A model generated the notes under the pieces. That model was not told the DNA's origin. It searched no databases and was given only the letters and a program-made list of their open reading frames with translations. Below are positions 11,657 through 12,303 of a stretch of DNA of 44,080 nucleotides, in pieces. Where the stretch lies: positions 1-44,080 of the forward strand of contig CAIUHP010000086.1 in the NCBI GenBank assembly GCA_903899015.1, given 5' to 3'. The stretch's first letter is position 1. Each line of letters opens with the position of its first letter. Made by a program: the position numbers and the translations under genes. The DNA is from an uncultured Armatimonadota bacterium. GTDB lineage: Bacteria; Armatimonadota; Fimbriimonadia; Fimbriimonadales; Fimbriimonadaceae.

Positions 11657-12064
11657 TTACTTGCGCTTGCCTGCGGCTGCTGCTGGCTGGCCTGGCTTTG
11701 GACGCTTTGTTCCGTACTTTGAACGACCCTGCATTCGCTTGGCAGTGCCGGCAGTCTGCTGAGTACCGCGCACGATGTGATAGCGAACACCAGGAAGGTC
11801 CTTTACACGACCACCACGAACGAGCACGACTGAGTGCTCCAGGAGGTTGTGACCTTCACCCGGAATGTATGCCGTTACTTCGACACCATTGGTCAAACGC
11901 ACACGGGCGGTCTTTCGAAGAGCTGAGTTTGGCTTCTTCGGAGTCATGGTTCGCACAACTGTGCATACCCCTCGCTTGAAGGGGTTACTCTTCAATGCGG
12001 GCGACTTAGACTTCACCTTTGGGGCACTTCGGCCCTTGCGTACCAGCTGGTTAACGGTCGGCAT
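11657..12064 (-). CDS. rpsL: 30S ribosomal protein S12
   Basis: S12 is the decoding-centre protein and the classic site of streptomycin resistance. The 135-residue sequence has [23 protein letters not shown] and the loop [14 protein letters not shown]. The lysines whose replacement gives resistance in other bacteria are present, so a sensitive form is expected from the family. The C-terminal tail is Lys/Ala-rich. GAGGTG precedes the ATG. It is the first gene of the cluster, about 200 nt downstream of a strong promoter. Confidence 0.98.
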
Positions 12065-12125
12065 TCACACCTCTATTCATTTTCGTATTTCCTTACTTAA
12101 TTTTGGGCTGCTACCCTCAGGCAAC

Positions 12126-12158
12126 AAAAAACCCCTCTGCCTATCACGCGACAAGGGG
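12126..12158 (-). terminator. Terminator-like hairpin in the str operon leader
   Basis: On the minus strand CCCCT (12154-12158) pairs with AGGGG (12132-12136), possibly with two more inner pairs, followed by six T (12126-12131). It lies between the promoter at 12274-12303 and rpsL, about 60 nt before the start codon. With no minus-strand gene before it, it can only act in the leader, as an attenuator. The loop holds CGTGATA (complement of 12142-12148), complementary to TATCACG earlier in the leader (12231-12237), a possible competing pairing or pseudoknot. Confidence 0.6.
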
Positions 12159-12273
12159 CTCCTCAGTCCGACAGCATTCGCTTCTTGCGTTGTATCGTAG
12201 TTCCTTACGAAACCGGCCTGCGCCTCCCGACGTGATAATCGACTGAAGACGCAAGGTCTCCAGACAATCAGGG

Positions 12274-12303
12274 ATTATGACCTTGAATTCAAGCCGATGT
12301 CAA
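12274..12303 (-). promoter_or_regulatory. Sigma-70-type promoter of the str operon
   Basis: On the minus strand TTGACA (12298-12303) is followed after 18 nt by CATAAT (12274-12279). This is the best housekeeping-type promoter in the window and lies 210 nt upstream of rpsL. A transcript would start near 12267 and carry a leader of about 200 nt with the attenuator-like hairpin. It probably drives rpsL to tuf and possibly the whole cluster. Confidence 0.75.

Follow-up and report, generated by a model that had tools for sequence, protein, structure and literature searches.

A probable transcription attenuator in the rpsL leader of the fused str-S10 operon of Armatimonadota

Attenuators in the leaders of rpsL are already known in other groups, those of different lineages sharing neither sequence nor structure (Naville and Gautheret, 2010, PMC2965389), and they are thus a known kind of element; the part of that paper available to us does not name Armatimonadota as one of the groups. 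Here we describe a leader of about 203 nucleotides (nt) in a 44,080-nt window, contig C86 (CAIUHP010000086.1) of the 4.9-Mb genome of an uncultured Fimbriimonadaceae bacterium, which lies on the minus strand, runs up to the rpsL ATG at 12064, and is probably a transcription attenuator of the fused str-S10 operon, as judged from sequence comparison and predicted folds. It is a new instance of the rpsL-leader attenuators by its span over the sampled families and its shared build, with one architecture spanning many families of the phylum. The Escherichia coli str operon has the same genes and is subject to feedback by the product of its second gene, S7, but there the control is exerted on translation at the rpsL-rpsG junction, whereas the Armatimonadota element is located before rpsL and, as far as its anatomy tells, would act on transcription (PMC10931766, as far as its available sections describe the E. 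coli system). The Bacillus subtilis rplJL operon, with L10(L12)4, and infC, with L20, are likewise ribosomal-protein operons under transcription attenuation, and rplJL forms mutually exclusive terminator and antiterminator folds, as the Armatimonadota leader is predicted to do; however, the protein site of rplJL is an anti-antiterminator with a kink-turn (same sections of PMC10931766), whereas no conserved anti-antiterminator was seen in the predicted folds of the Armatimonadota leaders. Literature searches on Armatimonadetes or Fimbriimonas ribosomal-protein leaders and transcription attenuation gave no description, and the main text of a report of 20 new ribosomal leaders (PMC7247131) does not mention uS12, uS7, or any word beginning with Armatimonad.

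The leader is preceded by a sigma-70 type promoter (12274..12303, with TTGACA at 12303-12298, an 18-nt spacer, and CATAAT at 12279-12274), and transcription is predicted to start near 12268. A terminator hairpin, CCCCU-UGUC-GCGUGAUA-GGCA-G-AGGGG (12132..12158), is followed by UUUUUU (12126..12131), the U-tract of an intrinsic terminator, and four extra pairs (UGUC/GGCA) stack above CCCCU/AGGGG, making the hairpin stronger than first described. Its loop contains CGTGATA (12148-12142), the complement of TATCACG at 12237-12231; the latter, UAUCACG in the RNA and referred to here as segment A, is the putative 5' strand of an antiterminator. Next to it is GGGAGGC (12222..12228), containing a GGAGG motif, which could form a helix with GCCCCUU in the 5' arm of the terminator, interrupted by one A.C mismatch, so the 5' arm and loop (12158-12142) would double as the antiterminator 3' strand; a small hairpin, GUUUC-GUAA-GGAAC (12200..12213), is predicted between the two strands. 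The original prediction had named the promoter, a leader of about 200 nt, the CCCCT/AGGGG hairpin, the six T, and the 7-nt complement, and all are located at the places it gave, on the minus strand. The organization is that of an intrinsic-terminator attenuator, with a terminator between the promoter and the first gene and an antiterminator, predicted to be exclusive of it, that uses the 5' arm.

The window sequence by itself provides weak evidence for such a switch. A consensus scan of 8-16 kb finds three promoter-like sites, including the leader promoter, where shuffled sequences lead to an expectation of 5.1, and none on the same strand between the terminator and rpsL; a consensus terminator scan of the same 8-16 kb does not list the leader hairpin, which has a bulge in its stem. 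When the preceding 109 nt are dinucleotide-shuffled, 1.4% of 5,000 shuffles contain a complement of at least 7 nt to the 8-nt loop, and the TATCACG/CGTGATA match taken alone is marginal. DNA comparison within the genome did not reveal a second copy of the leader, and searches with Rfam (release 15), whose families include riboswitches, the T-box, and known ribosomal-protein leaders, gave no matches at the gathering score in the window, two matches in the region that are both far below it, and none in 15 related loci at E values of 1 or less. Because the single-sequence evidence is weak, we compared rpsL upstream regions from 128 Armatimonadota loci, 78 from the family of the window and 50 from other families.

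A strict detector identifies the promoter in 97 of these 128 leaders, the terminator in 98, and both in 77; in four shuffled sets the same detector reports 0-1 promoters, 4-11 terminators, and no leader with both. Promoter and terminator together were found in 0/62 comparison rpsL loci, of which 60 are not recognised as Armatimonadota and two (L025 and L062) were matched to Armatimonadota genomes (G181 and G186). With a relaxed pick, which 17 of the 128 leaders failed for promoter or terminator, an 18-nt spacer is present in 84/111 leaders and TTGACA in 83/111. The hairpin ends mostly 115-140 nt past the predicted start in the family of the window, and CCCCU...AGGGG hairpins are visible by eye before rpsL in several deeper families too. 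A conserved RNA precedes this ribosomal-protein operon, as is characteristic of a ribosomal-protein leader.

The antiterminator pairing was evaluated by a swap test in place of a covariance model because alignments were uninformative, with terminator arms one to three columns out of register from species to species in MAFFT. The swap test is alignment-free: the upstream strand of each species is paired with the downstream strands of other species, and the energies of own and permuted pairings are compared. Of the 111 leaders, 87 entered the test, as 10 were excluded by their hairpin energy or leader length and another 14 did not have the motif. Recurrently across leaders, the stretch preceding GGAGG, the motif itself, and the bases that follow can pair with the loop, 5' arm, and upstream flank of the terminator, in letters that vary from species to species. 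Own pairings average -22.1 kcal/mol versus -18.45 kcal/mol for permuted ones (z -10.3, 0/20,000 permutations), and the signal persists with one leader per genus (60 leaders, z -8.9) and in the separate parts, segment A with the loop (z -6.0) and the flank part (z -5.6). Controls pairing segment A with the flank (z 0.0) or a strand moved 24 nt upstream (z -0.6) are flat, and a strand moved 24 or 36 nt downstream does no better than swapped strands (z above 0). An earlier swap test with 61 leaders, for which the terminators of L098, L115, and L157 were placed by hand, had the same outcome, and a narrower-window version with 41 leaders gave -9.7 versus -8.4 (p 1.5e-4; p 0.04 for the genus alone). 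In one leader (L119) a 13-bp complementary run extends into the terminator stem, and the loop motif GYGYG is enriched (44/87 versus 12.0 +/- 3.1 in shuffled sequences). The comparison of 128 leaders makes the pairing of the upstream segment with the loop convincing as part of a longer antiterminator, and we read it as a helix that would exclude the terminator. The original prediction had proposed comparing related rpsL upstream regions, and in that comparison the promoter and terminator are conserved and own-strand pairing beats swapped strands, supporting its proposal of an attenuator in the str operon leader.

Predicted folds of growing transcripts place the two structures in a fixed order, as computed with programs that do not model pseudoknots. 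In the window, the loop pairing is predicted for transcripts of 125-137 nt, whereas those of 139 nt and longer form the terminator instead, and segment A has a pairing probability of 0.83 before the terminator 3' arm emerges; across the leaders, 68/87 folds have the motif paired with the terminator region at the stage when the 3' arm is still missing. Several observations nonetheless weigh against an attenuator built in this way. Across the 87 leaders the completed terminator is favoured over the antiterminator by a mean of 5.3 kcal/mol, and the antiterminator state is lower in energy in only 11% of them; readthrough would therefore depend on kinetics or a factor. The minimum-energy prediction for the window holds only the 7-bp loop half of the antiterminator and not the GGAGG half, and the fold with GGAGG:CCCC is 4.4 kcal/mol above it (-43.2 versus -47.6). 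MAFFT and RNAalifold give almost no consensus structure for 28 leaders, the GGAGG motif is absent from 14/101 leaders that passed the other filters, and a control in which the 3' extension is paired with the loop shows a slight preference for own strands (z -2.0 and -2.5) that is not fully explained. Within one genus, the leader also seems to have been lost from three genomes (L117, L127, and L128). The predicted folding order and energies are those of a kinetic switch in which timing or a bound factor would decide the outcome.

Comparison and structure prediction show the promoter, the terminator, the antiterminator complementarity, and the folding order, and from these we infer attenuator action in the cell. 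RNA polymerase would start near 12268 and make a hairpin, P1, while segment A and the GGAGG motif stay free until their partner strand emerges. The terminator 5' arm and loop would then pair with the segment A/GGAGG strand as the antiterminator, delaying the terminator hairpin while polymerase passes the U-tract, and operon transcription would go on. With slow polymerase or an upstream strand that is already occupied, the 5' arm would instead pair with the 3' arm, and termination would release a short leader RNA, about 140 nt in length and with its 3' end near 12126, a simple predicted product.

The likeliest guess for the signal, by analogy with E. coli, is feedback by a ribosomal protein of the operon, with excess protein binding P1 or segment A and favouring termination. 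S7 heads the list of candidate sensors because the corresponding genes of E. coli are under its control (PMC10931766, in the sections available). P1, a stem-loop at the 5' end of the transcript (GAUUG-U-CUGGAGAC...GUCUUCAG-U-CGAUU, 12237..12269), is more stable than shuffled sequence (z -3.8 in the window, mean -2.3 over 87 leaders) and adjoins segment A, and it is therefore the natural place for a sensor. Such an element would put S12, S7, EF-G, EF-Tu, and the S10 operon of a poorly studied phylum under a single switch, and would offer a starting point for finding the sensor of ribosome supply in Armatimonadota. Likeness of the leader to rRNA, compared by sequence only, is at background in 109 leaders (16S, 19.70 versus 19.58 shuffled; 23S, 20.58 versus 20.60), and a resemblance, spotted by eye, between GGAGGGCAAGCG (L097-L099) and the 530-loop region of 16S was not borne out by the 16S and 23S comparison. 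The comparison thus gives no signal for or against the sensing of S7 or S12 that the original prediction had suggested. Ribosome-mediated attenuation by a leader peptide was rejected, with no ATG, GTG, or TTG 4-12 nt downstream of the motif in 76/87 leaders.

The GGAGG motif itself could point to a different sensor. Its middle A is present in 49/50 motif-bearing Fimbriimonadaceae leaders and is paired in only 13; an A-to-G change would stabilise the antiterminator in 45/49 (mean -3.7 kcal/mol), and the A seems to be kept for a reason other than pairing. Switching may require this weak spot, or else AGGAGG may be recognised, for example by 16S rRNA. In the latter case free 30S subunits would bind the start-less AGGAGG through the 16S 3' end (the anti-Shine-Dalgarno sequence) and remove the antiterminator strand, an explanation that we regard as unlikely. 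The near-invariance of a mostly unpaired A, the lack of a start codon after the motif in those 76/87 leaders, as fits a decoy Shine-Dalgarno site, and the 16S of a congener, which ends ...CACCTCCTTAAAAG, all agree with it; however, the GGAGG of family f12 is fully paired at the middle A (6/6), families f31-f33 mostly carry AGGGGG, as judged by eye, and 14 leaders lack the motif. Moreover, the anchor patterns are biased to GGAGG over GGGGG, and the motif has near-average exposure in predicted folds (0.37 versus 0.40 unpaired). If it were true, spare ribosomes would switch off the whole str-S10 operon through a decoy, and the RNA would gauge ribosomes directly rather than one ribosomal protein.

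Two further explanations concern the pairing itself. The original prediction had left open a competing pairing or a loop pseudoknot, and the former is supported by complementarity that runs on into the terminator 5' arm and flank, whereas the latter gives way to a helix that excludes the terminator. Docking of segment A on the loop with the terminator stem intact, which would stabilise or shape termination, agrees with the window, where the paired part is wholly inside the 8-nt loop, but we think it quite improbable given that the flank has covariation of its own and that the 13-bp run in L119 enters the stem. A constitutive partial terminator that sets promoter output, with the upstream complementarity arising by chance, is consistent with the terminator as the most stable predicted state but conflicts with both swap tests (61 and 87 leaders), and it is very hard to credit.

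The operon downstream of the attenuator candidate begins with rpsL (S12; 11657..12064, minus strand), followed in order on the same strand by rpsG, fusA, tuf, rpsJ, rplC, rplD, rplW, and rplB, all assigned by Pfam. Upstream of the leader and in the opposite direction is a gene for a class II (D, K, N type) tRNA synthetase (Pfam), and the closest named relative of the genome, as judged by S12, is a Fimbriimonas metagenome-assembled genome (98%). A few sequence records stand out: no 16S rRNA gene was found in assembly G000 despite its 99.87% completeness rating, rpsL at G066:C25:3383-3792 is apparently split into two stretches by an assembly error or frameshift, and L005 (JADZEW010000026.1) is labelled as a Methanoregulaceae archaeon, a label that looks wrong, as its S12 matches Fimbriimonadaceae genome G056. 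In L117, L127, and L128 (G038, G041, and G040), TTGACA...CATAAT is located about 20 nt before the rpsL start, without a leader or a clear ribosome-binding site, and their congener L126 retains the attenuator, so these look like natural loss. Several congeners (L084, L086, L088, L089, and L094) have a further conserved string, GUUGCC...CUUGGCCGC, directly after the U-tract. Bacillales loci, including L018, L031, L037, L040, and L045, have a conserved GTTTTTG...CAAAAAC hairpin between the preceding gene and rpsL, followed by TTTGTTTTT, about 70 nt before rpsL.
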